Shown one piece after another: positions 1,838-54,917 of a DNA stretch of 64,000 bases (position 1 is the first letter of the stretch; each line of letters starts with the position of its first letter). This DNA is from Hydractinia symbiolongicarpus (lineage: Eukaryota; Cnidaria; Hydrozoa; Anthoathecata; Hydractiniidae), in assembly GCF_029227915.1 (NCBI RefSeq), contig NC_079886.1:12111501-12175500 (forward strand). The letters are read 5' to 3'. The notes under the pieces are model-generated. The model saw only the letters and a program-made list of their open reading frames with translations, made no database searches and was not told the origin of the DNA. Both the position numbers and the translations under genes were made by a program.

Positions 1838-1842
1838 TTACG

Positions 1843-2375: not shown

Positions 2376-2683
2376 GAAATTGGATACAGGAAATTCATTC
2401 CTAAGCTTTTTATAGGATTAAGAAAAACAAGCTGATGTATGGATTTGTTTCCATTTGAAAGCTTTCTTCGATATGCAAAACTTTTACATATAACTAACGT
2501 TTTACCTTCACAAATAATACCACACAAAATATTAAATATTTAAAAGGAAATCGAACAGAAAAATATTTTGTAGGCCCTAATTGTTAATTCTTGAATATTG
2601 GACTTTAACGTAAGATTGCAAAAGCAATAATTTTAAATTTAACAGAACCACCATCGAATCATCATGCTTGATGTGGATTTAGG

Positions 2684-3105
2684 TCATCTCAACTTCAAAT
2701 CTTTTTACTAAAAATAAAAAGATAAACAAATATGGAACAAATCTTCCAAAGTTTGCGGACGAGTATTGGGAAAAAGAGTTTCTTGACATTGATAATGAAG
2801 AACATTTAAGCATTTCTCTAAAAAAAGTACAAATGTTAGAACTAACCTTCCCTTGTAGTAAAGATTCTCCTTTCTCTAATTCTCTCACTATCGCTTTTGT
2901 CGACAATATTGTCTGTCAAATTTTCTATAAACAAAAAAAAGCACAACAAGGCAATGAAATATGCTTATATGCTCAAAACTTAATATCGCCAAATAATGGT
3001 GTTCTGTGTTCTTTTTTACCTGATAGTGATAGCACGTGCAACTTACACAGCAATACTTTTATATTCTTTTTTCTAAAATTCAAATTTATTAAAAACCATT
3101 GGTAG
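2684..3105 (+). CDS. possible exon of an unrecognised gene
   Basis: An uninterrupted frame of about 140 codons follows a TTTAG acceptor-like site near 2683 and ends at a stop at 3105. The translation begins VISTSNLFTKNKK and includes PKFADEYWEKEFLDI, a normal-looking globular composition for its first two thirds. There is no ATG at its start, so it would be an internal or terminal exon. The last part becomes hydrophobic and AT-driven. I recognise no family. It may be chance, as open frames of this length are uncommon but possible here. Confidence 0.25.
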
Positions 3106-4199
3106 ATCAACCCAGTATTTTCCTGTTGACATCATAACATTTCTCTAAAAAAATTATTATGAAATTATGAACTATCTGTACATTTTTTTAATATTTCTGT
3201 GAATGTTTCACAAATATTTGAGAAGTTTCCTCAAATAATTATTTTTTAACATACAAAATATATAAATGAATGAATATAAACTATCACACATTTAATTATT
3301 AAAAGCTGTAGGTTGTTGCTTTGTCTGTCAAAATAAACGCTAATAAGAATAAGCAATAATTACACAATATTACACAAGTGATGTATGTAGAATCAAGTAC
3401 GTTTGTGTAAGGTTTATCTAAATATGTTAATTTTTTTTAAAAAAAAGACTTAAACTACACTTTTTCAAAGCCTAATAATCTTATCAAAAATAAGCAGCTA
3501 AATTTGCACTACATAACATGATTCCTATACACACATCACTGCACTAAATGAAAAGGGTCACTTTACAGAAGGATCGTGCAATAATAGCATGCACTCTTTT
3601 ATGAAGTTTTTTTCAACATTTTTTTATTCCCAGACTGTAAATACAATCTTCAACATACATTATCTACAATATTATAATTACAATCACATAACATACCAGT
3701 TATACACAATATATTACCATTGCAAATTAAACAAAGAATATTATTTTTGTGGTCAAACTTTCACAAATCACTTTCTTAATTTTAGCTTAATTTAATTTCA
3801 TCCAAATTTTTTATTCTTTTGATGAACAAAGTGCTTTACCTTCCCTATTAAAGTTCCTAGCCAATCTATTGACACTTTCACAAACAAAATATAATATTCC
3901 AACCAATGCAGCTGTATTTGATGTTACTCCAGTTGTTAAGGTATATATGCAAACAATGCTTCATCCATGGATATAAAGTCATACAAATATTAGTTACTCT
4001 GTAAATTACTCTGTAATTAATTATTGTAATTACCGTATGAAACAAAAAAACATTGGGTAAATTTTTAAGCCTGTTCCAGGGGGACACTTATTCAGCTAGG
4101 CTCAACCTAAAAAAAAGAATCCAGGCATTCTCTCTTCCAACGTGCACATGCTATGGTATACTGGGTTGAACCAACCTTTGTTGTCATGCGTTGTTATTC
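3106..4199. other. AT-rich intergenic stretch, nothing recognised
   Basis: Very AT-rich sequence with short homopolymers and no repeat family, splice-consistent exon or domain that I can see on either strand. The small frames at 3589-3795 and 3878-4087 have low-complexity composition. Confidence 0.5.
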
Positions 4200-11949: not shown

Positions 11950-12691
11950 TATTATACATTTTTATAAGAACAATGCTGATAATTGCTGAAAGAGTAAGCA
12001 AAAAATGAGAACAATGGCGAGACTGAAATTTTACTGCTATTTTATTTTTTAAGATGTGGAAAAAATGCTTGTCAACAAGAATCTGGTCAATTTAGAAATT
12101 TATTTTTTCAAAATCTTCATTATTTCACGAGTTAGCACAGAACATAATTTTTGCTTTGTGTTTTTTATAATGGGGTTAACTAAGATGAACTACGAGTTGT
12201 TCAACGAATCAAACACTTGAAATTATTGAAAAGTTTAAAATAGATTAAGGCGAATCGCAACATTAAAAAAAGATAAACATTCTTGTATAAAGAAAACATG
12301 TATGTTATTATTATATCCACTCTATACGCACTGGATCTAGTCACTCATGCGAATGAAGTGAAAATTTTGTATACTTCAAACTGCAAAGGAAGATTTTTTT
12401 GTGCTAAGGATTTGTAAAATTTTCAAAAAAGGCGGGATTTTTTCCAAAAAAAATTGCGTAAAATAAACCTAAAGTTTATCGTTTTGATATTATTTTGTGC
12501 TAGAATGAGGGATTATATTATAACGAAAATCAGCCAGACTTAAAATGTTTATGCTCAAAGTACTTGCAAACCAAATGGAAGTCTGGAAACCAACCTTAAA
12601 ATTTCCAGACGTCTGTTTGGTTAGGCATATTTTAATGTAACAAATATTTTTTAGCTGTATGAATGTTTTTCTGCGACATAATAAAAAACAT
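11950..12691 (+). repeat. left arm of a 742-bp inverted repeat
   Basis: This segment recurs, inverted and about 97% identical by eye, at 14428-15177. The outer ends share ATAAGAACAATGCTGATAAT and the inner ends share CTGCGACATAATAAAAAA. It begins about 100 bases after the transposase stop. It carries no coding frame that I can support. Confidence 0.9.
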
Positions 12692-14427: not shown

Positions 14428-15177
14428 ATGTTTTTTTTATTATGTCGCAGAAAAACATTCATACAGCTAAAAAATATTTGTTACATTAAAATATGCCTAA
14501 CCAAACAGACGTCTGAAAATTTTAATGTTGGTTTCCAGACTTCCATTTGGTTTGCAAGTACTTTGAGCATAAACATTTTAAGTCTGGCTGATTTTCATTA
14601 TAATATAATCCCTCATTCTAGCACAAAATAATATCAAAACGATAAACTTTAGGTTTATTTTACCGCAATTTTTTTTGGAAAAAATCCCGCCTTTTTTGAA
14701 AATTTTACAAATCCTTAGCACAAAAAAATCTTCCTTTGCAGTTTGAAGTATACAAAATTTTCACTTCATTCGCATGAGTGACTAGATCCAGTGCGTATAG
14801 AGTGGATATAATAATAACATACATGTTTTCTTTATACAAGAATGTTTATCTTTTTTTTATGTTGCGATTCGCCTTAATCTATTTTAAACTTTTCAATATT
14901 TTCAAGTGTTTGATTCGTTGAACAACTCGTAGTTCATCTTAGTTAACCCCATTATAAAAAACACAAAGCAAAAATTATGTTCTGTGCTAACTCGTGAAAT
15001 AATGAAGATTTTGAAAAAATAAATTTCTAAATTGACCAGATTCTTGTTGACAAGCATTTTTTCCACATCTTAAAAAATAAAATAGCAGTAAAATTTCAGT
15101 CACGCCATTGTTCTCATTGTTCTCATGTTCTCTTTCAGCAATTATCAGCATTGTTCTTATAAAAGTGTATCTTATAT
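14428..15177 (-). repeat. right arm of the 742-bp inverted repeat
   Basis: Inverted copy of 11950-12691; together the arms frame the companion-gene segment at 12692-14427. The few differences are small indels in A/T runs and single substitutions. Confidence 0.9.
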
Positions 15178-16070
<893 letters not shown>

Positions 16071-17468
16071 TAAAAACCATGTTTTTTCGCAAACCCTTAC
16101 CCCCTATAACCTTTATTTTTGTATAAGGAGTATTCTTTTTGTCTGCGTATGCGCCCTGTATGCCTTTTTGCCTCTTAAAAAAAATTTGAAATTTTTGTGT
16201 CTACATAACGATTCCATATGATTTGTGTCTACTTTAAGAAAATTTTTACATTAGATCGACTAAATGTAGACAGATATATATTTTATATACATGAGCGTTA
16301 AACCCGATCATCTGATAATTATTAATATTGAACTGCAATATTGTCTTTTTAAAGACATTTGTCTCATTGTTGTAAGTGATATTTTTTATAATCTGTATGA
16401 AAACAAAAAAGAAGCACACGTTAGCAGCTGTCCAGTTCGGAGAAAAAATATAAAGGAAAAAACACAAATTATAGCATCCTTAACATGTATTTAAGAGTAT
16501 GTGAATTTGTACCAAAAGTTTGGTTACAATTTAAGAACTAGCTTAATGAAGCAGCAAAATGCGTGGAAGTGGTTTATGTGGGTACAAAACCAACAAACAA
16601 CGAATGCAACAATTGCGCTTTGTAAAGAGGATCTTAAGCAACATTAAGGGCATTAAAACTGTTGCTTTTGCATGTATTCGATCCGATACGTTTTTTACAG
16701 GGTTCACATACAGCTTTTAAACCAAATTTTTCCCTGACTTTTCATTGAATTCTATATTCTTTGCCCTGAGTCACTGAGTGGAAAGGCCATGATTTCCCAG
16801 CATACAATCAGTAAAAAAAACCCTTTCAAGACATTTTGTAGTTTGCAAACGAACACAACTTATACTGTTTTTGCTATGATGTAGTAACTACGGGTTATAA
16901 ATTTTCCTTAAATTTTTTTAAGATTTTGAGGTTTTTAAGGCTGCTGGGTTTGTTTAAAAAGATACAAAACTAAGAGTGTCAAAATAAAAGTGTATTCCTG
17001 AAACTTCCAAACACATGACATGCGTAGTAATAGACTCCTTTGAACATAACAAAAATCAAAAAAGAAAGAAGAACACCTAAATCTATAATATGCGTTATTA
17101 AAAACAACAGAACAAGGGTAAAAATGAAAAAAAAGGGTAAACACATAAAATTCAGTATTTTCATACATTTTTATATGCAAACAAAAAAACAAAAAACGAT
17201 TAATCATTTGCTGCTTCTTCGAATTTAAATAAACGAACCTGGATAACCAAGCAGTTATATCTTACTAATTCCACAGAAATTAACTTCCTTTTCCTTTTTC
17301 TCATTTGACACTAGTTATATAATGGGGCTGCGTAAGGAAGGACTGAGAAATCAAGAAACGTACGCTAAATGATAATCTGTTTAACGCCTTAAACCTTCCT
17401 AAATGTATCACCTTGTACGAACTATATCACGAATAAACGAGAAATAACTGTGTAAACAAGATACCTTC
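16071..17468. other. 3' flank of the SET-recombinase gene, nothing recognised
   Basis: AT-rich sequence between the left end of C and a MITE. Small frames at 16246-16494 and 16935-17228 have low-complexity composition and no splice context. No domain seen on either strand. Confidence 0.45.
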
Positions 17469-17827
17469 AGGGAATTAATTTTCGCGGGGACTTATTTTCG
17501 CAGAATTTTTTTTTACTAGAATTTGGCGGGAAAAAAGGGAATTTATTTTCACAAATTTAGTGTTGAAGAAAATTTCGCGGTAACTTATTTTTGCGAATTA
17601 TGCAAATTTGGAAAAACAACTATTCCGGTGAGTTATTTCGAAACAACATACAGAAGAGAAAGGAAAATGTCCCAGAGAAAGTTATACATCATTGTCTTTT
17701 GTATCAGGCCGATTTGGAAATTTCCCAGATCAGGGATATTTAAACTTTTCGCGGCGACGTATTTTCGCGTTTTTGGAAAAACTCCGAAAAAACCGCGAAA
17801 CTTAATACCCGCGAAAATTAATCCCCT
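17469..17827. mobile_element. MITE with TTAATTTTCGCGGG inverted ends
   Basis: The left end AGGGAATTAATTTTCGCGGG is mirrored at the right as the complement of CCCGCGAAAATTAATCCCCT. Inside are several further TTTTCGCG / CGCGAAAA motifs, giving strong hairpin potential. No coding capacity. The target duplication is unclear. Confidence 0.7.
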
Positions 17828-18254
17828 TAAAAGATATACTTCACTTATGAGAGCCAGTTTTCTTATCACATACAGTTATGAAAACCACACAGTTCAAAAT
17901 ATTTTTCATGGGAGAGGGGGGAGAGTTGAATTAAATTATCGTTGATCATACATTTTGATTGTTAAAACATGATTGAAACCTGTATAGAAATTATCCTCGT
18001 GACTTTAACACTTTTTCTTGCCTTTCTCCCCGTCTAAGGGGTGACGGAGTGATGTGTTGTTTAGACTTGAATTTTTTAGAGTATACTCAAGAAAATTTGA
18101 TGATGATAAAAGCTGTCACATTATTTATAAAAACATGTATAGTGTACATGTTTTTATAAATGTACTTTTGTAAACATAATAAATAATTATAAACATGTAC
18201 TTTTATGGTAACGTAAAAATAATAAAAATAAAAGAAACCAAAGCTCTATCACAA

Positions 18255-21200
18255 TTAAACAATGTTCATTTTCTTTTTTTTCGCTTCCGCTTGTCGTGCT
18301 ATTTTTCCTCTTTCATTGTTAATTTTATTTCGAACAGTTCCAACAGTAATTCCTTCCTCGTTGGCGAATTTTTTCAGATCATCAGAGCCTACACATACAC
18401 AAATATTAGATATTCAAAAACATGTTTTCATAATTAGTGAAAAACATACATGTCATACATACAAGGCCATCCATTTTTTTTATTTTTTATATGTCTTGCA
18501 AATTTTTTGTATAGTTTATCCTCTTGCTCTGACGACCATTGAATGTATTTTCTTTCTTGTTGACCTGTAAAAGAAAACATTACAAGATTAATTTATACAC
18601 GAAAAGGGCATACAAATTTCAATGATTTCATTCTTATTTCGTCCTCCAATAGAAGAGAAGAAATTGTCGCGGAAGCAATTTTTGCGGATGGATGCTTTCA
18701 AAAATTGTATGAAATATGCGAAATAAAAAAGTTACGAATAGTCTCATTTAGTTGCAATTGAAAATCTTTAATCAGATTGTTGGAATCTCAACTTTGCGGA
18801 TGTCCGCCCTTGTCTGGTAATTTGTGGAATTTTGGTTTGTGAAAACAAATTCGCAAACATTAATTCCGCCATCTTTATTATCATTTTCATTTCTTTATTT
18901 CAGTATTTCTTTAATGAATTTTTTTCCATATTTTAAAAAGGTTAATTATCTATATTATAATACCCGTTTACGTCTGTCTGTCTGTCTGTCACGCAAAATG
19001 GTAGCTTAGCTGCGCAATAGCGAGAAGCACGCAATGCGGTATAAAAAGGACGGGCGAACCCGTGGATTTTCCACGGGCTAACGACGAATAGCGAATTAAT
19101 AATTATTAAGTATTATAGGGATTAAGATAATCTATTTCTTTTTATTAGTTTCTGTATATTTTCGGACTCCAATTTCAAGAATATGGAAATAAATATTGTG
19201 AAAACGGATACGATGATTTCGGATCTAAGCTGTCTGCGAGTTGTATCAAATAAACTTTCGTGTTCAAGTACAATAATTTCATTTATTTGACGCAAAATAT
19301 TCCACTTTAGCAATATTTTCATTTTCGGCAATTACGCAGCAATTTTTAAGATATTATTCTTTTTAGCTGTTGTTTATCACCGGTAAGTACAATCAACTAA
19401 TTTTTGCAATTTCATATACTATATATAGACAGACCAAGAAATTAAAAAATATGGTACTTTTTGATTTTTCTTAGTAAGGAGTTATACAGTATTGTTGATT
19501 AACAAAACCTCACCAGTGCATTTTACAGAATTCTCGAGTTCGCTATCTTCACTTGATTCAGACCATTCAGAAGGTTCATCATCGTTCACATTTGTAAAAT
19601 GTTTGGATTCTTCAGATGTTTCTAAACCGTTAAAAACATTGTAACTTTATTGAAAAATCAGGAAAAAATTAGGGAAAATCAGAATATAAAGCATCACTTT
19701 GCAAACAACCAGTAACTTGTTTATAAAGAAGTTAAATGCTGACAAAAAACAAACAACACAGGATATCATTTTGAAAACACAAAATCATGGAAATCAAGAC
19801 ATACTTTGAGAAACGTTCTTTTCTTTTCTAAGTGCATACTTTCTCGTGGGTGCTAAAAGGAAAACGGCTTTCAGTCATTTTGCAATCAGGTATTGTAACA
19901 AAGTTAACTTACACAACAGAAATACTAAAAAAATTGACTATTTATACTGTCCTTCCCTAGTAACAAATATTATGTGTGATGTTTTATGACGTCACTATAA
20001 ATCTGAGATCGTGTTTTCGCTATTGACCATCTAAGTCGAATAGGTTGGTTTTTCACGTAAATTTTGTTTACATAGGGGCTTTTATTCGAAGCCCTGTTCT
20101 GAAAACAAACATTTTATTTGCAACGTAAGGCTCTAATGATTCAAAAACGAAAATGTTTCCAATAATACATAATATTTTGTGAATAAAATCTTATTGTTAC
20201 GCAATGAACTAACCGCAAGTTTTCTCTTTTTTAAATGTATCGTTTCGATGAGTTTGTCTTTTTTCTCCCACTTGTACACTTTTCTTCATTTTCTTTTTAT
20301 TCGGTAATTTTACAGTGTTCGCTTTACTTGTGTCTTTTTCAGCATTTTCATCTACAAAATACATTTACAACGTAATTCAAGCCTGTATGTAGGTAATTAC
20401 GAACAAGTTAGACCTGAATAGAATGAAGAGTCAAAAGAACTTACTTTGGAAGAATTTCAAAATTAAATTTCTTGTTTGACTGCTCACAAGGAAAAGAAGT
20501 ATGCCAATATGAACAGCCATAATTCTAAGTTTTACCTCTAAATTTTTTTTCATTTTCTTCAACTAAGTTAGGACCCTTTTTCTCGAAGTTATTGTCATTC
20601 TTTATACTTTGCGCTATAAGAAGATATGCGTTTGTTTCACTTTTAAAAAATTGATACACAAGAATAGACTACAGAAAAACAGCTCACCATTATCAAGGAC
20701 AGATAGATGTTTCCCAGTTGACAATAGTTGTCGATGAGCAGCTGGTGCTTGGTATATCGTTTTGTTAATTCTCTCACTGTGCCCAAAATGATCATAGGCC
20801 AAACTCATATCGGACTCTGATAGACCTAAACCAGCAATTAAGGTACTAAGGCGATGTCGGTTACTTGTACCACTAATTCTTTCTCTGTTGGCAATTGGAA
20901 GTTTTGCACAAACATTATCTAAGCTATGCCATCCAGAGCAATGATTATCAGAACCTTGGGTACTGGGAAATATGTATGAGTTTTCTTCAAGGACACCAGC
21001 ATCTTTCCTTACTTGCTCGTTAGCCAACAACTTCATTGCAGCAACAGTATCTTTAGGAATAAAAACAGGAACTAAATGGTTGACTCCTTTTCCCGATTGA
21101 AATGTGATCTTTGTCCCACTGCTTAAGTTAGTTTCTTTTGCAATATCCTGTATCCGCTGTTTGTCTAACCATTCATCCTTTTCAGCTTCAATCCACTGCG

Positions 21201-24200
21201 TAACGGTTAGACGCGATGGTTCTCCACCTCTTCGGCCATTATACAGCACAAGACGAGTGCAAGCACAATCACGTAGTTCAACAAACGTATGTCTGTCCAT
21301 GATGATAAATGGATCTGATGATAAGTGGCGTATCCTTTCAATCACATAATCTCGAATTAGTTGGACATCGCCTTCGTTTGGAAGTTGTGCAGGTTTTTTA
21401 GTTTTTACATTCCTTCTCATGTTTAAATCATACGTTGCGTCAGCGAATATTTCATCTTTGCGTAATTTCAGCAATACCAAAAAGTTTTTAATTTTTTCTG
21501 CATCAACATCATTATTTTTACCAAGGTAATAACCAATTAGTTTTTCGGCGGCGTCTTTCAACACGTAGTACAAGGCTGCCTTAAGTCCTGACTTTTGAAC
21601 TTCCAAATCAGAATGAGTGTAGGATTCAATAGAATATTTCAGCACCTCAAAATTTTCCCTCAGAAACATGTCACCAGCATTGTTTTTGTCATTACAACAA
21701 TCTCTTGGTACTTCCAACACCCTATCTTTAAATCTGGAATAAACATGTGCCAGACGACGCATGTCGCTTCGAACAGACCGTTCAACTTCCATCTTTTTGT
21801 TTAGTCTTCTTTTTATTTTGCCATAGAGGCGATGACCAACCATCAAAATAACGGGATCCGATTTGGCAAGAGTACCAACGGCATCGTCTCTGATGATGTT
21901 CAAAATTCTCTGCTTAAATTGATCATCCGATAGCTTCCATGACTCATCACTAGTACAATCCAGAGCAATTGTAACAGGAAATTGACAGGAGTTCTTTGAG
22001 CAGTCTGCCTTGTGCCTAGCTTTAAAGGTTTTGGCATAAAATCCTTTGCAGGTGGTGCACATAACAAGTGGGTCATCTGAATCGTTTTGCTTTTCACGCA
22101 ACAAATTTCTACCGCCCTCCTCAATTTCTTTAACATTATGATTATATATGCCAATTTTTCGAAAGTTAGCGAAGGCTCTCAGTCTTTCTTTTCGAGGCAT
22201 GTTCAAAGCATCCTTTACATCTGGATGATGCTTATGACATAAAGTGATGTGTCTATTTAATTTCGAATGCTTGATCTTTTTATCGCAAACAAAACAGGGT
22301 CTCAATGGTCTTGAGTTTATCTACGAATAAACATCACGCCTAAGCTACTTAACCGTTTATTCTTACAAAATGTTTAGCATCAGATTTATCAGATTTGTCG
22401 GAGACAAAGGGGTTCAAATAAGCAATTTAGGAAAGAAGCCAATATTACAAAAAGAAGCTCTTGAGCATCAGTTATTCTTGTTTCAGCAAAGAGTCTGGAT
22501 TCAACTTTTAAATGCAGTGACTTAACGGCGTCAACGAAACACACAAAAAATAAAATTACCTGTTTGGCTTCTTTTTCCTCAGATTTTCCCACTTTCTAGT
22601 AAAAAAAGCAAAAGGTTATAAAAGTTAATATATCAAGTGCAAAACATAAGAATACATTTTTAGCATCCAGTGAAGTTATGGATTATCTTGTCAAGATCTT
22701 TTAAAATAAACAAAAAATAAACACTACCTCGTTGGCGCTTTTCTTTACAGATGTTTCTTTCTTCTAATAAAGATACAAATCAGGCTATAGGAAAGATGTC
22801 AATCGCAACATTATGTACATACATTATGTTCAATTCTTATTTGATTCGATTGCTACGGCATGTCATATCCTTCCAATGTCAAATGAAACGCCGCCTTTAG
22901 TTCGTTTGATGTAAATTCTAGGCCTTATTATAATATATAAAATAGAGTCGCTTTTTATAACTAGAACAAACTAATAGTTACACAACATCGGGTATTTTAG
23001 AAGGCTAAAGAGGTACATACTTAAAAATATGATTAATACTTTCGACATAAAATACCAATAAACCCTATAATTAGAAGGAACCTAACTTTAACTTTGGATT
23101 TTAAAGATTGCGTAAAAAAAGTCAGGGATTAAGAAAGAGAAATGACACTATGCGTAAAAAAATGATAACGTCAAAGATTGTAGTTATGCAAACCGAACAT
23201 TCTCCTTATAGGACCACGGAACATTACCTCTATAGCAATACTGTTCTCCACTTTTCCTTCCTCGTCTGTATCAATGATTTCCATATCGTCTTCAACATTT
23301 AATCCGGAATCATTTTTCACAGAAATCTGAAAGAATCGGCATTAAACAATTTATTTTAGTAGGGTAATTTTATAGCATAACGTGTTATTTACCATAAATC
23401 TTCTTTAAATACTTATGATCAATTAAGATAAAAACCTTTTGATTTTTACGTATCCATTTACACTTTCCTCGTTTGCATAACAAAGTATTGTATGGAATTT
23501 CGGAATATCATACACTAAGCTGCTATCAAGTTACCTCACATATGGATGGACTGTCCGTAGTAAAATCAACCTCAAGATTGTCTAAAAAAATTAAACCTAT
23601 TTGAAACCAAAATAACAAAGGACACTTTTTAGCCAATGGACCAATTAAAATAAATACTTAAAACAGACACAGTATGGCTTTTTTAAAACAGATAAAAACA
23701 GTTTATAAAATGGGACTTGATAAAGGTGAGCGGGTTAGTATTTACGAATAAAAGCGAGCAGGTTATGAGTTCTAAGTTACAACAACAGAGTCCTTTTTGG
23801 AAATCCAGTTATATATCATATGAGAACATGCTTTATTCAGAAGGATTTTTTGAAGGCCCAGAATTCGAATAACAACTTAAAATCATTGCACTAAATGCAA
23901 AAAGAATCAGTCACATTGGAGCTTAATAGAAAATTAATTTAATGTAGATGGCAGCTTTACCTTTATCAATACTTGTTTGCACACCTGAAGCCTATGAACA
24001 AGACAAATGTGACTTTTACTTTTAAGTTAAATTAAATTAAAGAAGGGAAGAGAATAAATTTAGTTAGCAGAATTTTTTCATGGCATACAATTAATATTTA
24101 TGCTATCTTTATACTTCCTAGATTATGGCAAACAAGCGTCTAGAGACTTTCAATTTAAAAACGAACACGCGAGATTATAAACTTAGAGAATTGACCACTG

Positions 24201-27200
24201 AATTATAAAATAGCAGTTGTTTGGTATCTTTGACGGCAATAAACAAATCACTCAATCTATTTATGGCGTTATGATTTATAATGAAAAATGTTACACCATG
24301 AAAATTTTACAGCGTTCATTTTCACAATTTTAATGAATTAAAATTGTGGAAGTTGTTTTGAAGTTCCTATCATACCTTATACTGAACTGATAGTTTTCTA
24401 GTCTGTATCGGAGTTGAAACTGTGACCTAAGAGCATTTAAATTTATATAATTGATAGTAATTTTAAATGCAATTATGTCTAGGAAGCATGACATTCAACA
24501 AAGTATGTATTACAAAAGCCTATACCAGTCCGATTTCCTCATATGGACAAAGGTTTAGGTTTAATTTCTTGAATACGCAAAATTATAAATTACTTACAGA
24601 CGAAATATGATTCAAAGTATCCAACTCTGAAATATCTTCTGCCTCTTCAGAATCTTCAACCATGGACTAAAAGGAGAACAAACATTTTTATTGTTATCAG
24701 CAATTATGCTAACACAAACAAATTATGATTTAAATTAATTTAACATTAGTGCCGTAATTTCTGTTATGTAAACCGTCAATGTAATCATAGAAATATATAT
24801 GACCACAACAATAATAAAGCAAAACTAAAAAGTCCATGAATAGTGCACCAAACTCAAATAGGCTTACCATAAAGGGAAGTAAATTTATTAACCTAGTAAA
24901 TAAAGACGTAAAGAATTTAAATAATATTAAACTTTATAACACCAAGACTCTCCATTGCCAGCACTGTGACATTAAGAAAAAAGAAACAAAAATTATACAT
25001 GTTGCCACTTGATTTTAGTCCCTCATCTTCACTGTCTGAAAAATCTGGCACCATATTTTCCATCTTAAAAATAAAGAATGTTAAATTTAACAAGAACTAG
25101 TTTAAGATTTGGCACTCTCAATTTACAACATTTTTTAAAAAAGTTTGTCTTATTCCTATGCTAGAACAGATTGTGTGCTATGTTTCATAAAGCTTGTATT
25201 TCTTAGCAGCCACTCTGAAAACGAGTCTTAGAAGCTTTGAATCAAAAATAACAATTTTAAAAGAACCAGGTATGTAAAGATTCAATTCTCTAATAAAAAA
25301 AATCATTTTTACTTGGCAGCCCATGGCTCAACTGGGATTTTGTACCTGGCCTTTAAAAAATAATAAGGTGATGCTTTTCCTTAAACAGCAAAATGTAGTA
25401 GCTTTACCACTTTACATACTTCAATTTACATTGAATTTTTTATAAAATTAGAAAATATAACAAGTTTATCACCTGAGTTGCCACCACATCATCAAGCAAT
25501 TTTTTGAGAATATCTGTAATGATACCCACATTTTCGTCATTATCCTCCTTCTAAGAAGATATTATCAGTGTTCACATTTCAAAAAACAACATTCGTTTTG
25601 CTATATCAACTGTGTCTTATTTTTTATCACGTTTACCTTTTTTGCAATGACATCAGAGGTCAAGTTATTCTTGCCTTGGACCAAGGTCAAGTTCTTACTC
25701 AACACCTGAAACAACAAATATCATAGAAAAGGAAGATCCCAAGAAACTAGAAAATGGATAAAACATATTGCTAATGGACGACCTTATTATATGCACACTT
25801 ACTATTTATTACATGTAATATAAAAACTTACTAGCCTATCTGAAACTAGGTCTTCTAAATTGAATGGTATATTATGTGTTGGATCCTACAAGAAACAAAC
25901 AGTTTTATTTGACTGTTCTTTCATATATGTATATATCTTTTATCCTAGAAGTTTTTTTTAAAACATGTCCGAAAGCTGTGTTCAAAATAAAAGCTGTTTG
26001 ACATACAACATACTTGCAGACAACAAGCTTAGGCATACTCAAAAGAGGAAAATATAAATTTTGTTAATTGTGTGCTACCTTTTGCCATTCTAGCCCTGAA
26101 ATTCCATAATTGTATCGCAGTTCAGTTCCTAAAGGAATGTCATAGGAAGCAAACAAACATATGAATGCATTTCCACCCTCCTCGATCAATTTTGGATAAC
26201 AATTCAAATATTTCCGATGACTTGAATGGTTCACATATTTTCCCAGCCTGGTCTCATTTGTAGCATCAACACTAAAAATTTAAAAAATATATTAAGACAT
26301 AGAGAACTATAGAAGGGAACTGTTTGTAGTTTCGTTTTTATCTTTACCATAAGATGTTTTAAATCAAATTGCAAAAAATCCAAAACAGAAATTGTTTATG
26401 TCTATATGTAATTTGATGTAAAAGCTAAGTAGTCTTAACTTCCTGGTGCTACTTTGGTACGTCAAGCTTACATAAAACACATCTACACTCCAATTCCTAA
26501 ATAAGACCTTCTATTTTCACCTTAGCTATTAGGTGAATGTGATCCAACTTCAAGTGCCTCCCCAAATGAAACTGAAAACAAAAGGCATTCTCAATTCGAC
26601 ATACCACTTTTTGTCCATAAAGAAAATAAATGATCCACAGGAAGTTGGATACTCTAGCTCTAATCTCTCTCCTTCCTTTCTTGTGAGAACTTTTCCAGGA
26701 TATTGCAGGACAAACTGGTGATGTTTCAGGGGCAATGTTGTAAACACACCATATCCTACAAATATATGTTTACCACACATCTATTCTGTAATCATTAAGA
26801 AGTTAAGTTATAACAGTTATTCAAAAAAATAACAAATTTACCAATGTGATCATTAATCCATTTCTTTACAAATGATTTTGGATCAGTTCCCCTTTTACAA
26901 TAATATAGTGCAGTTTGTCTTGGCGATTTAACATCATTAGCTCTACTTCTTTTCGTTCTCTAAAGAGAATTAAGTAATACAAGTGAGTCAGTAAAATAAT
27001 GCCGAAATTATCATTTGAAATTGGACATATCAAAAACATAAATTTTAAAACTTAAAGTGGACATATACATGGATATTTCCTTTATACATATTTTTGAATA
27101 GTTGAAACTAATATGTCGAAATTGTCATCCTAAAGTGGACATATCAAAAACATAAATTTTAAAACTCAAAGTGGACATATACATAAACATTTCCTTTTTA

Positions 27201-30200
27201 AATATTTTTGAATAGTTGAAACTAATATGTCGAAATTATCATCCTAAAGTGGACATAACAAAAACATAAATTTTAAAACTCAAAGTGGAAATATACATAC
27301 ACATTTCTTTTTTAAATATTTTTGAATAGTTAAAATAATTTTATCTCAAAATTATCATGCTAAAGTGGACATGTCAAAAACATAAATTTTAAAACTCAAA
27401 GTGGAGATATACATAAACATTTCCTTTTTACATATTTTTGAATAGTTAAAACTAATATGTCAAAATTATCATCCTACAGTGGACATATCAAAAACATAAA
27501 TTTTAAAACTCAAAGTGGACATATACATAAACATTTCCTTTTTACATATTTTTGAATAGTTAAAACTAATATGTCGAAATTATCATCCTAAAGTGGACAT
27601 AACAAAAACATAAATTTTAAAACTCAAAGTGGACATATACATAGACATTTCCTTTTTAAATATTTTTGAATAGTTGAAACTAATATGTCGAAATTATCAT
27701 CCTAAAGTGGACATAACAAAAACATAAATTTTAAAACTCAAAGTGGAAATATACATACACATTTCTTTTTTAAATATTTTTGAATAGTTAAAACTAGTCG
27801 AAATTTTTCTTTACATATTCTTGAATATTAAAAATAATTTTATCTCGAAATTATCATGCTAAAGTGGACATATCGAAAACATAAATTTTAAAACTTAAAG
27901 TGGACATATACATTTTCTTTTTACATATTTTAAATAGTTAAAACTAATATGTCGAAATTATCATCCTAAAGTGGACATGTCAAAAACATAAATTTTAAAA
28001 CTCAAAGTGGACATATACATAAACATTTCCTTTTTACATATTTTTGAATAGTTAAAACTAATATGTCGAAATTATCATCCTAAAGTGGACATATCAAAAA
28101 CATAAATTTTAAAACTCAAAGTGGAAATATACATACACATTTCTTTTTTAAATATTTTTGAATAGTTAAAACTAGTCGAAATTTTTCTTTACATATTCTT
28201 GAATATTTAAAATAATTTTATCTCGAAATTATCATGCTAAAGTGGACATATCGAAAACATAAATTTTAAAACTCAAAGTGGACATATACATAGACATTTC
28301 CTTTTTACATATTTTTGAATAGTTAAAACTAATATGTCGAAATTATCATCCTAAAGTGGACATATCAAAAACATAAATTTTAAAACTCAAAGTGGACATA
28401 TACATAAACATTTCCTTTTTACATATTTTTGAATAGTTGAAACTAATATGTCGAAATTGTCATCCTAAAGTGGACATATCAAAAACATAAATTTTAAAAC
28501 TCAAAGTGGACATATACATAAACATTTCCTTTTTACATATTTTTGAATAGTTAAAACTAATATGTCGAAATTATCATCCAAAGTGGACATATCAAAAACA
28601 TAAATTTTAAAACTCAAAGTGGACATATACATAGACATTTCCTTTTTACATATTTTTGAATAGTTAAAACTAATATGTCGAAATTATCATCCAAAGTGGA
28701 CATATCAAAAACATAAATTTTAAAACTCAAAGTGGACATATACATAAACATTTCCTTTTTACATATTTTTGAATAGTTAAAACTAATATGTCGAAATTAT
28801 CATCCTAAAGTGGACATATCAAAAACATAAATTTTAAAACACAAAGTGGACATATACATAGACATTTCCTTTTTACATATTTTTGAATAGTTGAAACTAA
28901 TATGTCGAAATTATCATCCTAAAGTGGACATGTCAAAAACATAAATTTTAAAACTCAAAGTGGAAATATACATAGACATTTCCTTTTTACATATTTTTGA
29001 ATAGTTGAAACTAATATGTCGAAATTATCATCCTAAAGTGGACATATCAAAAACATAAATTTTAAAACTCAAAGTGGACATATACATAGACATTTCCTTT
29101 TTACATATTTTTGAATAGTTGAAACTAATATGTCGAAATTATCATCCAAAGTGGACATATCAAAAACATAAATTTTAAAACTCAAAGTGGACATATACAT
29201 AGACATTTCTTTTTTAAATATTTTCGAATAGTTAAAACTAGTCGAAATTATCATCCTAAAGTGGACATGTCAAAAAAATAAATTTTAAAACTCAAAGTGG
29301 ACATATACATAAACATTTCCTTTTTACATATTTTTGAATAGTTAAAACTAATATGTCGAAATTATCATCCAAAGTGGACATATCAAAAACATAAATTTTA
29401 AAACTCAAAGTGGACATATACATAAACATTTCCTTTTTACATATTTTTGAATAGTTAAAACTAATATGTCGAAATTATCATCCTAAAGTGGACATATCAA
29501 AAACATAAATTTTAAAACTCAAAGTGGACATATACATAGACATTTCCTTTTTACATATTTTTGAATAGTTAAAATAATTTTATCTCAAAATTATCATGCT
29601 AAAGTGGACATATCGAAAACATAAATTTTAAAACTCAAAGTGGACATATACATACACATTTCTTTTTTAAATATTTTCGAATAGTTAAAACTAGTCGAAA
29701 TTATCATCCTAAAGTGGACATGTCAAAAAAATAAATTTTAAAACTCAAAGTGGACATATACATAAACATTTCCTTTTTACATATTTTTGAATAGTTAAAA
29801 CTAATATGTCGAAATTATCATCCAAAGTGGACATATCAAAAACATAAATTTTAAAACTCAAAGTGGACATATACATAGACATTTCCTTTTTAAATATTTT
29901 TGAATAGTTGAAACTAATATGTCGAAATTATCATCCTAAAGTGGACATGTCAAAAAAATAAATTTTAAAACTTAAAGTGGACATATACATAGACATTTCC
30001 TTTACATATTCTTGAATATTTAAAATAATTTTATCTCAAAATTATCATCCTAAAGTGGACATACCAAATACATAAATTTTTAAACTTAAAGTGGACACAT
30101 ACATAGAAATTCCTTTACATATTCTTGAATATTTAAAATAATTTTATCTCGAAATTATCATGCTAAAGTGGACATATCAAAAACATAAATTTTAAAACTT

Positions 30201-32582
30201 AAGGTGGACATATACATTTTCTTTTTACATATTTGAAATAGTTAAAACTAATATGTCGACATTTTCATCCTAAAGTGGACATATCAAAAACATAAGTTTT
30301 AAAACTCAAAGTGGACATATACATAAACGTTTCCTTTATACATATTCTTGAACTAATATGTCCCAATTATCATCCTAACATGGACATATCAAAAACATAA
30401 ATTTTAAAACTCAAAGTGGACATTCATATTTCTTTTTAGATATTCTTAAAGAAAGTTAAATTTATATGCCAAAACTATATATTAAAGTAGATATGTCAAA
30501 GTCATAACTCGTAAAACTTAAAATGACCATATACATAGGCATCTCTTTTGATATTACATGTCTTTTTTGATAAGAAAATGAGCCTCAACAACCTTAAAAT
30601 CTTAGGAAAGTTTTAAGAAAATCCCCGTCCTCCACGTGTCAAGATGCAATTTTTTAGACCACTTACAGTTACCAAATCACCACAGTTTCAAAAAAATACA
30701 ATCAAGTTTCTTTCTTTTAGTCAAATATACATCCTAATAAAGTTTTATCCTAAAAGTAACAAAATAAATCTTTTTTTTATTAAAAATGTCTTCAATAAAA
30801 TACATAAATAAAAGCATTCAACTAGTTCAATTTGGGAAAGTCAAAATAAGGGTACGTCTCAGTAAACGGTCACCACTCACACACCACAAAAGTCATCTCT
30901 GGCGTACCACAAGGAAGTGCGCTTGGACCGCTCATCTTCCTGATCTTTCTGTAAAGGACGCATCTCTCTCAAGCTTTGCAGATGATACAAGACTTACAAT
31001 GAAGGTTAGCTCTGAAAGTGACATTGAAAATGTGCAAGCAGACCTAAACTTAGTCTACGAATGGAGCAAACAAAACAACAAAGAAAAAAGTGACTGACGT
31101 CCGTCGTCCACAACTTCAAAAGTTAACATAAGTAACATAAGTAATGATAAACATCATAAAGTGCACACATTGTAAAAGTTGAGTCAGTGGACACGCAGAC
31201 ATTTCTCTTACATATCCCTAAAAATTTTAGAACTGTTATGTCGAAATTATCATTGTAAAACTCAAAGTGAACATATATATGCATAAATATTTCGTTTATA
31301 TGTTCTTGAATACTTAAAACTTATGTATTGAAAATATCATCCTAAAGTGGACATATCAAAAATATAAATATTAAAAATCAAGGTGGACACATATATAGAG
31401 ATTTCCTTTACATATCCTTAAATACTTAAAACTAATATGTTGAAATTTTCATCCCAAATGCGAGTCAACAATTACAACTTCACACACAACAATCTGGAAA
31501 ATGTGCCTTGAAACAAGCAAAATTCCACCCATTTTTAAAACTGCTACCATCACCCCACAGCACAAAGGTGTCAATGCTCAACATAAAGCATGAGATAATT
31601 GGAAAACAACAACATGGGTAGCAAGTTTTCATATTCGAAGCATGTACATTTGTAAATATACTGGCATATAAAAGTACTTATTTCACTTAACAGAAATAAT
31701 TTTACACCCAATTAAGAAAAAAATAAATTTACTTTTCGTTTTGAATGTATAGTTGTGACATGTTTATCACTTTGCACAAGATTAGAAAGTCGTACATTTG
31801 AATCTAATAGCTATATAATAGCCTCATTTGAATGTGAATCTTACGGGATGGTTTGCACTCACTCGCACTCACTTACTAAGCATGAATAATATATAAGCAT
31901 TTAATTTCTGATTAAATTTAAAGTATATATATATATATATATATACCTGAGTTCATGTTAAAAAAATCAGAGGCAAAGAAGGGTATATAATTACTTGGTC
32001 TGTAGAATAAAAAGAGGGTGCCGATAAGAACCATCAAAAACAGTTCTTTTAAGAACTTCGCTACCACATAGTAAGTTTATTTTAATTTTTATAGTTTTTA
32101 TGAATCATATCAGTGTCTGTTTCCTTTTGTTTTTCGGGCATTGTTCGGGCCTATGCGGGTTTTTTCGGGCGAATACCGAATTTCTTACAAAACGCCGAAC
32201 TAGCCGGAAAACGCCCGCACTTTTTACGGCGTATGCGGCTTATCGGCACCCTCGTAGAATAAAACACTACTAACATGTTTTCAATTAAGTCATGCAAAAC
32301 TGAAAATTCAATCCTGTTGATTAGTGGCCACCAAAAAGTTTTGTATCCTAGATGTAAAGCTCCGGATATCATGTCATATATAGCTATTCTGTGTTGCCTG
32401 GTGAAAGAGAAAGTTACCAAGAAAAATGAAATCACAGAATTAAAATGTTCAGGTGACACACAGCAGTTTCCTAAAGAGCTTTCACTAAGTGGCAAGAATT
32501 AGAAATGCTGAACACATAGTCCAACAACAAAATTTAAATTCCTACTTACAGTATTGTATTGAACTTGAGCTACCTTGGCCAT
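18255..32582 (-). CDS. SET domain - zinc finger - tyrosine recombinase - SANT-like fusion gene, about 21 exons
   Basis: Exons on the minus strand: 32582-32550, 26959-26842, 26780-26605, 26271-26079, 25885-25832, 25705-25637, 25550-25473, about 25063-25006, 24666-24598, 23991-23961, 23581-23535, 23326-23228, 22763-22728, 22595-22560, 22320-20688, 20613-20536, 20351-20214, 19852-19805, 19621-19514, 18564-18463, 18388-18255. Phases are compatible at nearly every junction and many donors are GTAAGT/GTATGT. The predicted protein is about 1,110 residues: start MAKVAQVQYNT (good AAAATGG context), basic segment, SET domain (about 50-173), acidic linker (about 175-365), two zinc fingers, tyrosine-recombinase core (to about 909), basic/acidic tail, and a C-terminal Myb/SANT-like domain with WSSEQEDKLY. 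It would methylate lysine and rearrange DNA, if both domains are active. Uncertain points: the junction of exons 2 and 3 (a stop lies before the ATG at 26780 unless the donor after GKF is used), the 3' border of exon 8, and whether it is one transcript or two adjacent genes. Confidence 0.7.
18463..18564 (-). CDS. exon 20: first half of C-terminal Myb/SANT-like domain
   Basis: Reads GQQERKYIQWSSEQEDKLYK and onward to NGWP, then a GTATGT donor. With exon 21 (18388-18255: SDDLKKFANEEGITVGTVRN and a lysine-rich end, stop TAA) it forms a helix-rich unit starting with Trp and containing a helix-turn-helix-like GITVGTVRNKI. Myb/SANT-like domains bind DNA or histone tails. Assignment is by pattern only. 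The phase-1 join is exact. Confidence 0.55.
18950..19085 (-). repeat. short copy of the CCCGTGG hairpin repeat family
   Basis: On the minus strand it contains CCCGTGGAAAATCCACGGG, CGCCCGTCC and a GACAGACAGACAGACG end followed by a TATTATAATATAG junction, the same layout as copies at 61262-61390 and 63408-63588. It lies between exons 20 and 19 of the SET-recombinase gene. Confidence 0.6.
20688..22320 (-). CDS. exon 15: two zinc fingers and tyrosine-recombinase domain
   Basis: A single 544-codon exon. After INSRPL comes a C2H2-type finger (CFVC ... HITLCH), then about 80 residues on a C2HC finger (CTTC ... HKADC). A helical region follows, then the recombinase core: NGRRGGEPSRLT (box I Arg, near 21,230), SGKGVNHLVPVF (position of the beta-hairpin Lys), SNRHRLSTLIA (box II Arg; the usual preceding His is replaced), and DHFGHSERINKTIYQ (His and the nucleophilic Tyr, near 20,760). 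These are the R...K...R...H...Y landmarks of tyrosine recombinases, including Crypton-type eukaryotic elements. No frameshift or stop interrupts it, so it appears functional. The donor is GTGAGC at 20687. Without an upstream exon it lacks an ATG at its 5' end, which supports its being internal. Confidence 0.85.
26079..26780 (-). CDS. exons 3-4: KMT5A/SET8-like SET domain
   Basis: Exon 3 (26780-26605) reads GKHIFVGYGVFTTLPL, VLQYPGKVLT and FIFFMDKK; exon 4 (26271-26079) reads CVDATNETRLGKYVNHSS and, near its end, GTELRYNYG. The GT|ATGT donor at 26604 gives a phase-2 join that recreates the CVDAT codon. These are the GxG, NHS and ELxYxYG landmarks of SET lysine methyltransferases; CVDAT.ET..LG..(I/V)NHS is especially close to KMT5A (SET8), the H4K20 monomethylase. 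The S-adenosylmethionine site (GYG, NHS) and the catalytic Tyr near YNYG are present. The usual YDYG reads YNYG here. Substrate is unknown. No post-SET Cys cluster is seen, as in SET8. Confidence 0.85.
27000..30545. repeat. 114-bp satellite array, about 30 copies
   Basis: Each unit contains AAAGTGGACATATCAAAAAC, about 40 bases later a second TCAAAGTGGACATATACAT, then TTTTTACATATTTTTGAATA and TATGTCGAAATTATCATCCT. The period is 113-114, with shorter and longer variants in which a block is deleted or expanded. Copies in the middle are nearly identical and the edges are degenerate, as expected for an array homogenised by unequal exchange. It lies in intron 1 of the SET-recombinase gene. The GTGGACA core is the same as at the ends of element C. 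Confidence 0.95.
30830..31097 (+). pseudogene. LINE reverse-transcriptase fragment, frameshifted
   Basis: One frame gives VISGVPQGSALGPLIFLIF (the template-grip motif before the catalytic motif). After a stop another frame gives ASLSSFADDTRLTMKV with the FADD catalytic box. Only about 90 residues remain. It differs from the LINE family at 41-43.8 kb and interrupts the GTGGACA satellite. Confidence 0.7.
31136..31460. repeat. diverged continuation of the 114-bp satellite
   Basis: Degenerate units such as CCTAAAGTGGACATATCAAA and TATGTCGAAATTATCATTG, separated from the main array by the LINE fragment. They are older than the central units. Confidence 0.75.
32014..32253. mobile_element. 240-bp MITE with long direct flanks
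   Basis: The ends GAGGGTGCCGATAAG and CTTATCGGCACCCTC are exact inverted copies. An 11-bp direct repeat GTAGAATAAAA lies left (32002-32012, plus one A) and right (32254-32264). The duplication of about 9-11 bp would fit a MULE-like mobiliser, but assignment is uncertain. It sits in intron 1 of the SET-recombinase gene. Confidence 0.75.
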
Positions 32583-33419
32583 TTTTTTAACAAAATGGAT
32601 AGCTTAAATCCACTCTCAGTGCTCACACAACCCTAAAACATAGGAAATATAGCAATATATATCCATCTAAAGGTAGCCAGATACTTAGCTAAAGCTTAGC
32701 CACTTATATATTTTTTTGATTTTTCGATAACTAACATTGGTGGCTACTTGTTTGACTACATAAATAGAAACGTACATTAGCTAGCTAACCACTCTTTTCT
32801 GGCTAGTTAGCAAAGTAGCTGAGCGAAACTTGGCAATCAGATAAATTATATTACTTGTTTCTGCACATTGAGGTGAAATATAACATAGGGTTTACCTCAT
32901 CTACTTTATTCACATAAACAAGGCAGAGAAATTCCATAAAAACAAAATAATTAACACTTTATCGTTCCCACAGGACAATCCACATGATAAACAAAGGTGC
33001 CATTATGGATGTACGGCATGCCGGCTGGTGAGAATATGTGCTGAAAATTTTCGCGGTATTTTTGCAGGCCAAACCAATAAAATTGCAATATATCTTTTAT
33101 ACCGACATAATTTTGCATAAAAACAATATAATTAGGAGCCTCCTTTGTGTTACAGACCACGTCATCAAAACGACCGAGATATAGCCTCCCGCTGCTTCAG
33201 AATTGCAAGATATATATCGTGTCCACCTAATGTACGAAAATTACAAAAGAGAGATATATACCCCAAATCCAATATGCCTATTTTTTAATAATTGCGCTGC
33301 GTAAAAATATGCATACAGTACCTTAATTAGTACTCTGTTAGGCCCTTAAGAATGACAATTAGATGTCATTATGACTGCGTTAACAAAAGAGGGTTAGAAA
33401 TTAGCGCAAACGTTACGTG

Positions 33420-33624
<205 letters not shown>

Positions 33625-40999: not shown

Positions 41000-43175
41000 T
41001 ACGGATCACAAAGGCACGGGTAAAAACGTGTACCTCGTTGGTGATTTCAATCGTCCTTGATTTTAACACAAACAAATCTGTATAAAATTATTTTATCTCA
41101 GTTTTTCAAAATGGGTTTATTTAATAAAACAACACGAGTGACGAGATCAAATGCTACAGCCATAGATCATATCATAACCAACGATTTCACAAATACGACA
41201 ATTAAAACAGGGATAATTAAAACAGATATTTCTGATTATTTTCCAATTTTCATTATGTCACAAACAACTCATTTACACAATTGCTCTGAAAAAATAAAAA
41301 TAAAAAAAAGATTGATCAATGATAAATCTATTAGTTATTTTAATATCCTGCTGTATTGTATGGATTGGAGCCTTGTTTTAGAGGACAATAACGCTGATAA
41401 AGCTTATGAAATCTTTCTTCAAACATTTCAACAACAATATGATCAGGCATTCCCAGAACAAACAAAAATTGTTAAAACTAAATCTTTGTTAAACCCTTGG
41501 TTAACCAAAGGTTTGTTAACATCATCTAAAAAGAAACAGCGCTTGTATGAAAAGTTTTTGAAAAGCAGAACTCTTGAGAATAAAAAAAAATATAAACATT
41601 ATAAACATTTGCTTGAAAATATCAAGAGGCGCTCCAAGAAATTTTGCTATAGTGGACTGATAATTAAACATAAAAACGATGCGAAGAAAACTTGGAGTAT
41701 AATCAATGAAGTAATATGTAAAACAAAATTAAGCAAAAAAAAACCTTCCAAAAGGGTTGAATATTGATGGAAATAAAATCGAGAATAAGTGTCTAATAGC
41801 TGAGGAGCTTAATGATTTTTTTGTAAAAGTGGGTTCAAATCTGGCATCTCAGATTGAACCTAGCAATTTGAGTTTTAAATCCTTTCTCACTGTTAATAAC
41901 ACACAAATGGAAAATAGCGAACTAAGTGAAAATGAATTATTCAAAGCGATCGACTCACTACAATCAAAAAAAAAGTCCAGGTTTTGATGACGTCAATAGT
42001 AACGTTGTTAAGCAATCAAAAAATGCTATAAAAATTCCACTAATGCATATATTTAACCTTTCCCTGCTGCAAGGATATTTTCCTGAAACACTTAAAATTG
42101 CAAGAGTTCTACCAGTATATAAAACAGGCGAAATGACTAATGTATCTAATTATAGACCAATATCAGTTCTTCCATGTTTCTCAAAAATACTAGAACGCAT
42201 AATGTACAATAGATTTTACTCTTTTTTAACTGCTAATTATATTTTATACGACAATCAATTTGGCTTTCAAGCAGGTCATTCTACTGACCATGCAATAGTT
42301 AAACTTGTTAATGAAATATCAAATGCGTGTGACGAAAACAAGTATATGCTAGGAATATATATAATAGATCTAAGCAAAGCATTTGACACCGTAGATCACA
42401 AAATTCTACTAGAAAAATTCAAAAACTATGGTATCAACAACTCCAACATTCGGTGTTTTAAAAGTTATTTATCCAATAGAAAACAGTACATTTCCTTTGA
42501 CGGTAGAAGTACAAATTACAAAACAGTCATCTGTGGAGTTCCTCAAGGTTCCATATTAGGACCACTCTTTTTCATTATATATGTAAATGATTTAAACAAA
42601 GCTTCGAATATTTTACATTCAATTTTATTTGCAGATGATACAAATCTGTTTTATGCACATAAAGATATAAAAACATTATTTCGCACAGTCAATAATGAAC
42701 TCTCTAAGCTGGCAGAATGGTTTAAGGCAAACAGACTGTCCCTAAATATTTCTAAAACAAAGTACACACTTTTTCACAGGCAAAATAAAAAAGATGATAT
42801 GCCATTGAAGTTTCCTGATTTATCCATTAATAATATAAGTATAAAAAGAGCACAATCCATGTAATTTTTAGGAGTTATTCTTGATGAAAATCTTACTTGG
42901 AGAGAACATATAAATATTTTAGAAGAAAAGGTCGCAAAGAATATTGGCATCCTATTTAAAGCAAAATTTGTTCTAGATCCGAATTGTTTAAAAAACATAT
43001 ATTCTTCTTTCGTTCACTGCTATCTAAATTATGCAAATATTGCGTGGTGCAGCACCAACACTACAAAATTGACAAAATTACAAAATACACAAAAACATGC
43101 AATCAGAATTATTTTAAATGTTGACAGGTACACTCACTCCATAGAGTTATTAAAAGGCTCAGTGTACTGAATGTA
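41000..43175 (+). pseudogene. LINE ORF2, 5'-truncated, frameshifted, one stop
   Basis: It begins at the end of the endonuclease domain (VYLVGDFN, about 41030), shifts frame, and continues with NATAIDHIITNDF. A linker of several hundred residues follows, then the reverse transcriptase: [53 protein letters not shown] and the catalytic FADDTNLF. Further frame changes occur near 41760 and 41970, and a stop at 42864 interrupts SM*FLGVILDENLTW. The C-terminal region (FVHCYLNYANIAWCST, QKHAIRIIL) fades out near 43175. It is a CR1/L2-like non-LTR element; the encoded enzyme would copy LINE RNA at a nick. The left edge lies about 100 bases from the right end of A. Confidence 0.9.
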
Positions 43176-43256
43176 TACCAACTACATAACTATGCATCAG
43201 CAGTTCCAAACACTCAGCGAAAATTTGACGCGTATATAAACTGAAATCAAGAAAAC

Positions 43257-43802
43257 ATGAAGCAAGAAACATTGACTGATAAAGAAATAACTGATGCTTT
43301 TCTCTCTTTTAAAACTAACAAAAGTCCAGGATATGACGATATCAATTCAAATGTAGTTAAGAACTGTCAAGATCAACTATTTGAACCGCTAAAACACATT
43401 TTTTCGATATCTTTAAAAGAAGATATTTTTCCCGAGCAACTGAGAATAGCACGAGTATCTCCAATTTTTAAAACTGGAGGCGACTCGTTACCAACAAACT
43501 TTAGACCAATATCCGTGCCCTATTTCTCAAAATTACTTGAACGAATCATGTACAATAGATTATATAAATTTCTTTTAGAGCATAACATTTTATATGAAAA
43601 ACAGTTTGGATTTCAACATGCACATGCTAACGAACATGCAATTGTTCAACTTGTTGACCAAATGCTCCAGTCATTTAATGAAAATAAATATACAGATTTA
43701 TCAAAAGCCTTTGATACCGTAGATCACGAAATTCTAATAAAAAAACTCAAATCTTATGGTATCAGAAACATATCACTCAATTGGTTTCGTAGTTATCTTT
43801 AA
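43257..43802 (+). pseudogene. second LINE reverse-transcriptase fragment
   Basis: An open frame of 181 codons repeats the N-terminal half of the reverse transcriptase: [45 protein letters not shown] and [14 protein letters not shown], ending at a stop at 43802 before the catalytic motif. It is a related but distinct copy, placed tandemly after the previous one. A few residues are missing near [10 protein letters not shown] relative to its neighbour. Its right edge is cut by the repeat starting at 43803. Confidence 0.85.
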
Positions 43803-51690: not shown

Positions 51691-52150
51691 ACTACTTTAT
51701 CATTCAAATTGAGCTCGTTCAAAAGTTATTTTATTCGAATCGTTAAGTTTCTACATAGCAAGATTTGTATTCTGGAATTTCCAGAATTTTCCTGATCACT
51801 TTTAAAAATATCCAGTTAAAGTTTTAACTGTTATTTTTAGAATAATTCATAAAGCTATGTAGAATTTTTATTTTTTATTTATTGAGTTGTATTTTAACAT
51901 TGCAGGTTAGTTACAAAAATAGTTCAGAATTGTGATACTTGTAATTTTTTTACCCCATAATTCTCCGTTTTCAAGGTCTACTTTAAATTTCAAAATCTTA
52001 AATGTTTCTATCTTAAAATCTTAAAATCTTAAATGTTTCTAATGTGAACAGAATTGTTCACATTAGAAACATTTAATTAACACATATAATTCCTGCCATG
52101 TGGAACTAAATTTTTTCTCATGAACTTTAAAATTCTTAAAACAGGTGTAT

Positions 52151-54898: not shown

Positions 54899-54917
54899 GT
54901 GGAGATAACACAGTAGC

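Follow-up and report, generated by a model that had tools for sequence, protein, structure and literature searches.

SETMAR is a host gene in which a SET domain is fused to a mariner transposase, and the Starship elements of fungi are large, are moved by a tyrosine recombinase, and carry other functions in separate genes. Cryptons are DNA elements moved by a tyrosine recombinase, with cnidarians among their hosts; in oomycetes, some of them also encode an additional enzyme, a C48 peptidase, and animal Cryptons are described as having neither a C-terminal domain nor terminal repeats (Kojima and Jurka, 2011; PMC3212892). By word search, "methyltransferase" and "microsatellite" were both absent from that paper. 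DNA methyltransferases occur in some retrotransposons (de Mendoza et al., 2018; PMC5890265). Among these, SymbioDIRS-Dnmt3 uses a tyrosine recombinase and has taken up an epigenetic writer, a cytosine DNA methyltransferase encoded in its Pol ORF; its recombinase is encoded by another ORF.

The window, namely, the whole 64-kb stretch (64,000 nt) of Hydractinia symbiolongicarpus DNA analyzed here, holds what is probably a recently moved tyrosine-recombinase DNA transposon of 17.5 kb, with one predicted gene encoding a SET domain, an acidic linker, two zinc fingers, and the recombinase. Judged from its sequence, the best reading of the element is a Crypton-like DNA transposon family with a predicted SET-recombinase fusion and TA-microsatellite targeting. 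The element, with its predicted fusion of SET to a transposition enzyme, resembles SETMAR, whereas here SET travels with the element; like the Starships, it is large, presumably recombinase-moved, and equipped with extra functions, but the recombinase family differs. Compared with animal Cryptons as described in the paper cited above, it has imperfect inverted ends, an N-terminal SET domain, and charged C-terminal exons. Its length of 17.5 kb and its (TA)n surroundings likewise set it apart from the Cryptons described there. SymbioDIRS-Dnmt3 is the nearest conceptual precedent; it is, however, a retrotransposon with a DNA methyltransferase, whereas the present element would be a DNA transposon with SET and recombinase in one predicted protein.

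A sequence-only reading of this DNA had proposed about 21 minus-strand exons with matching phases. When the gene was rebuilt from the window sequence, 21 minus-strand exons were indeed joined into one open frame of 1101 aa, and all 20 introns were GT-AG and compatible in phase. The predicted gene and its parts are as follows.

18255..32582, minus strand: predicted 21-exon gene, 1101 aa, with ATG at 32582 and stop at 18255
32550..32582, minus strand: exon 1 with the start codon, the weakest exon (gene model)
26842-26959, 26605-26755, and 26079-26271 (span 26079..26959), minus strand: exons 2-4, SET domain (Pfam and KMT5A match)
22560..25885, minus strand: exons 5-14, acidic low-complexity linker (gene model and exon-candidate scan)
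20688..22320, minus strand: exon 15, 544 aa, with both zinc-finger patterns and the tyrosine recombinase (model, motifs, and profile)
22234..22296, minus strand: zinc finger 1, C2H2, C364-C367-H379-H384 (pattern only)
22000..22059, minus strand: zinc finger 2, C2HC, C443-C446-H458-C462 (pattern only)
20752..21237, minus strand: catalytic part of the recombinase, R719, K766, T840-x-x-R843, H869, and Y878 (roles assigned by alignment)
18255..20613, minus strand: exons 16-21, charged tail with the WSSEQEDK end (resembling SANT by eye only)

Exon 1, which comprises 11 codons upstream of a 5.6-kb intron, is together with the linker exons the softest part of the gene model. An extra exon candidate near 25001-25063 was found to have no in-phase donor. 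The C-terminal WSSEQEDK region had been described as SANT-like, a claim that was left unconfirmed: the C-terminus had no accepted match in Pfam, and no match in PDB was better than E 0.28. Window positions 18980-19085 (within an intron of the gene), 61260-61358, and 63413-63457 are copies of one dispersed repeat.

The gene lies within an element whose boundaries were set by comparison of its copies, with the following features.

16016..33504, minus strand (gene sense): whole mobile element, 17,489 bp; copies align to its ends and diverge beyond them
33505..33621, no strand assigned: (AT)n tract adjoining the element 5' end
33475..33504, no strand assigned: imperfect inverted repeat at the 5' terminus, containing GTCCAC
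33221, 33432, 33449, and 33482, with 33417 inverted (span 33221..33487): 5' subterminal GTCCAC sites, candidate recombinase binding sites
26999..30423, no strand assigned: 114-bp minisatellite in intron 1, GTCCAC-rich
16034 and 16062: 3' GTCCAC sites, candidate recombinase binding sites
16016..16045, no strand assigned: imperfect inverted repeat at the 3' terminus, containing GTCCAC
15700..16015, no strand assigned: (TA)n tract adjoining the element 3' end, presumed target microsatellite

In the best of nine registers, the terminal inverted repeats matched at 18 of 30 positions, and 26 of 20000 random pairs were equally good. The hexamer GTCCAC, which was chosen after looking, occurred at 11 sites outside the minisatellite against 2.5 ± 1.7 expected (maximum of 200 simulations, 9), some of the 11 lying in minisatellite-like DNA near 31.2-31.5 kb. 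Its orientation was mostly mirrored between the two element ends. The intron 1 minisatellite appears to vary in length between copies; it is a possible recombinase-binding array.

All seven readable intact 5' junctions were located on (TA)n, with pure tracts of 116 (window), 358, 168, 42, 108, 58, and 220 nt, as were all five readable intact 3' junctions, with pure tracts of 316 (window), 32, 28, 52, and 72 nt, the 28-nt tract sitting inside a longer impure one. Past these tracts, the sequence was different at each insertion place. Only four pure TA runs of at least 20 nt were present in the 64-kb window, two of them at the element ends. The interrupted tracts beside one copy suggest that the element inserted into an existing microsatellite and did not bring the tract along as a tail.

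Searches of the 480.9-Mb assembly (76 contigs) revealed about 11 copies of the element on several contigs, each with a SET match. The first 22 of at least 150 SET matches came from 11 window-family loci, with a pair of exon matches per locus; the 3' terminal 200 bp of the element was found at 11 places, all at 100%, and the 5' end at 10 places, one of them truncated. The recombinase exon gave at least 83 matches, some from broken copies and many from divergent relatives; among the matches listed, nine full-length copies, the window included, showed 100% protein identity. No short derivatives sharing the element ends were seen in the searches with both ends. This pattern of many near-identical copies with common ends and different flanks supported the earlier proposal of a mobile recombinase carrying its own histone-type module, which is also backed by divergent lineages, described below, that place SET ahead of the recombinase on one strand.

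Eight further copies were compared with the window across 10.4-13.6 kb, the minisatellite being excluded, and showed 2-6 mismatches (0.15-0.58 mismatches/kb) and 0-2 gaps. In five of these eight, all 21 exons and splice dinucleotides were identical to those of the window. The copy at 14.2 Mb on contig C6 had one substitution in exon 21, the contig C4 copy had 14 extra bp in exon 19 and one exon 21 substitution, and the copy at 13.1 Mb on contig C6 had its 5' side in an assembly gap, which hides exon 1. Because introns were kept in the eight compared copies, movement is most simply understood as having occurred as DNA. The element is, from these comparisons, apparently young and intact. On the contig C15 copy at 3.01 Mb, the recombinase was found in two overlapping pieces, suggesting a broken frame, and one further copy is, we infer, divided over two contigs, with one part at the end of C6 and the other on C41. 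The contig C9 copy (C9:15606908) is truncated at its 5' end at window position ~33370, continues into other sequence, and is not beside a TA tract. One copy carries a 3.5-kb nested insertion (C15:7407948-7411423; window ~25268-25272), where an overlap of 5 bp resembles a target duplication.

As a single sequence, the recombinase had no match in Pfam, PHROG, or PDB. Its hhalign comparison with phage/bacterial recombinases gave P 0.018, and an HMM of 10 phage/bacterial recombinases scored the window sequence at 1.0 bit, the best of 500 shuffles reaching 5.1. A Pfam scan of the whole protein at E ≤ 1, the filters of which drop weak matches, returned SET and a sub-threshold zf-C4 alone, with no DUF3504-type match. 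The window was also compared with pieces from four other lineages of the same genome. A profile of the recombinase C-terminal part from these five lineages scored 37.2 against ten phage/bacterial recombinases (probability 70%, P 4e-5), and the Lys, Arg, His, and Tyr motifs lined up; 300 column-shuffled controls gave a mean of 13.3 (s.d. 2.6, maximum 21.2), and the reversed profile gave 18.3. A strict motif pattern, which was written after the sequence had been seen, was matched by none of 20000 shuffles, and a loose one by 740 of 20000.

The catalytic Arg-Lys-His/x-x-Arg-His-Tyr order and spacing characteristic of tyrosine recombinases was present, the Arg I motif being read from the window only, and GKG, TxxRHRxST, GHS, and YQAP were invariant across the five lineages read. 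The usual His of HxxR was Thr in all five, a partial departure from the superfamily. In the contig C10 piece, one stop lies behind the recombinase motifs. The profile match and the motifs in register supported the tyrosine recombinase assignment made from the window alone. As for the two zinc fingers also claimed there, the C2H2 and C2HC patterns were present, but no Pfam zinc-finger match was accepted in the 1101-aa product (zf-C4, E 0.14, below the cut-off). Structure predictions made without an alignment gave pLDDT values of 33-34. No confirmed relative was obtained from viral contig scans with the recombinase and SET or from a prokaryotic contig scan with the recombinase, and phage tblastn gave no relative. 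Five-lineage PDB/Pfam profile searches brought up AMPK, STAS, and BPTI-like proteins, which were rejected as relatives, the matches being insignificant (AMPK, E 0.26) or from one of the five members each (STAS, 0.0024; BPTI-like, 0.0075; AMPK, 0.033).

To place SET relative to the recombinase across the genome, the 83 listed recombinase matches were merged into 64 loci, and SET was sought within 20 kb using one SET query. Among the matches listed, SET lay upstream on the same strand at 28 of the 64 loci and downstream on the same strand at none; on the opposite strand, it was found once upstream and once downstream. The other count, again among the matches listed, was 36 of 64 loci with no SET match ≤20 kb upstream, many loci being fragments and the single SET query being insensitive. 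Grouped by place and identity, the 28 SET-linked loci fall into at least seven lineages: the window family, the C1:23477388 group, the C14:6184655 group, C10, C2:6972991, C5:16701109, and C1:29354588. C11:27200487 was rejected as an eighth; its recombinase is 86-92% window-like, but the SET match lies 19 kb off at 55% and may be unrelated. Co-variation of SET and recombinase distances was not significant (r 0.19; 37 of 120 permutations as good). Homologues that always encode SET and recombinase separately were not seen, the other lineages being judged by linkage and strand.

The SET domain (aa 51-157) matched Pfam PF00856 with E 2e-11, and its best solved relatives were KMT5A/SETD8 (E 7.6e-13) and then EZH2 (1.1e-11). 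KMT5A is a histone H4K20 methyltransferase (monomethylation). It is a stand-alone host enzyme, whereas the SET of the element lies within a predicted recombinase protein. Both share the catalytic motifs CVDAT, NHS, and YxYG, which are not exclusive to KMT5A, EZH2 being close behind; since EZH2 scores nearly equally, the substrate cannot be inferred from the KMT5A match. The SET part is likely a histone-type methyltransferase domain. The motifs DAT, VN[H/D]S, and RYxY and the subsequent Trp were kept in the five lineages read. The window has NHS and the four other lineages have NDS, and therefore SET activity may differ or be absent; the NDS variant of the relatives gives real cause to doubt a methylation role.

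This variant would fit the alternative that SET is a passenger or a non-catalytic binding module and that the recombinase alone matters for mobility, as would the 36 recombinase loci with no upstream SET neighbor among the matches listed. Frames have nevertheless stayed open and motifs conserved in lineages 50-59% different from the window, and the SET side was present at 11 of 11 window-family copies. We regard this alternative as unlikely.

According to another alternative, which we likewise consider unlikely, the mobile element is the same but SET and recombinase are two same-strand genes joined in our model through chance linker exons. In its favor, the other lineages give order and strand only, and short linker exons readily arise by chance: a scan of 3.1 kb (22325-25460) for open phase-0 GT-AG candidates, with two linker exons joined in phase 1 lying outside it, yielded 16 candidates, of which five were model exons. 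However, every exon in between is compatible in phase, and most differ from the antisense candidates. The D/E/K/S/T/N shares of the five scanned linker exons were 0.83, 0.67, 0.65, 0.61, and 0.41, against 0.07-0.54 in the antisense candidates (n = 10), so that four of the five (0.61-0.83) exceeded every antisense candidate and the fifth (0.41) did not. Moreover, the open frame of exon 15 is immediately preceded by a stop located at the splice acceptor itself, and the zinc finger 1 pattern lies upstream of the first in-frame ATG of the exon (22200); exon 15 therefore needs an upstream exon or loses the finger.

A DIRS/Ngaro-type retrotransposon, in which tyrosine recombinases are used as well, is very improbable. 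Intron 1 does contain a plus-strand ORF (30786-31094) with an ADDT reverse-transcriptase-like motif seen by eye; it had no accepted Pfam match, and no Pfam reverse transcriptase or RNase H was detected in the predicted product and six element ORFs, this one included, of about a dozen. In addition, the introns are retained, and the self-comparison of the window revealed no long direct repeats bracketing the element. Segmental duplication of a host gene family, or an assembly artefact, could account for nearly identical copies but is scarcely credible, given that identity ends at the same points within the TA tracts and that both flanks and contigs differ.

For the tyrosine-recombinase DNA transposon, the following mechanism can be proposed. 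The zinc fingers and recombinase would bind the GTCCAC-bearing inverted ends, and the element would be excised or copied in circular form, with a short TA spacer lying between its two inverted ends. Such a circle junction would resemble a classical recombinase core site. Insertion would then take place in (TA)n microsatellites by spacer homology, since spacer and target have to match for strand exchange. With less support, SET may be an active lysine methyltransferase, likely acting on histones, that is taken to the element or to its target by the rest of the protein, where it might mark nucleosomes, perhaps at H4K20 as KMT5A does, and thereby favor insertion or expression; such a mark might open chromatin, silence it, or time the reaction.

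Further SET-bearing loci were encountered in the genome searches. At L057 (C1:30388868 region), a SET match (2.9e-15) is followed by a DBF-type zinc finger (3e-12) in one frame; C7:9286740 and C8:15973111 have frames similar in length to that of L057, a second multi-copy SET kind. In L061 and L062 (~1489-3300, match orientation), a SET frame is followed downstream by a zinc-finger-like frame with CPVC...RHLRQKH that had no accepted Pfam match; these two are possibly another SET-bearing mobile family. At C4:6127861-6128265, a SET match lies within an open frame of 1272 aa. The surroundings of the element in the window include reverse-transcriptase fragments at 41926-43802 (RVT_1, 1.9e-32 for 41926-42864), an inverted repeat pair of 740 bp at 11954-12688 and 14433-15170 (98% identical), and a large tandem-like repeat block at 47656-59311 with many copies roughly 75-90% identical.

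Searches of openly licensed full texts brought up no description of a SET-tyrosine recombinase element, subscription papers and Repbase falling outside their scope. A fuller proposal is put forward tentatively, with somewhat less than even confidence: tyrosine-recombinase transposons with a histone-type SET methyltransferase built into the recombinase protein would form a class not yet described, kept in at least seven lineages of this genome, and would use a chromatin mark of their own making for access or expression at (TA)n targets selected through spacer homology.

Transposons are usually the targets of histone methylation, and numerous KMT5A-like gene models exist in fish. Here, a likely histone-type methyltransferase domain and a recombinase occur in one predicted protein, and the pair is kept by related lineages; the element may be a transposon equipped with a chromatin-marking enzyme of its own. 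Questions that thereby become open to testing are whether transposons are able to set their own chromatin state, for what reason TA microsatellites serve as targets, and from where some of the KMT5A-like genes in animal genomes originated.
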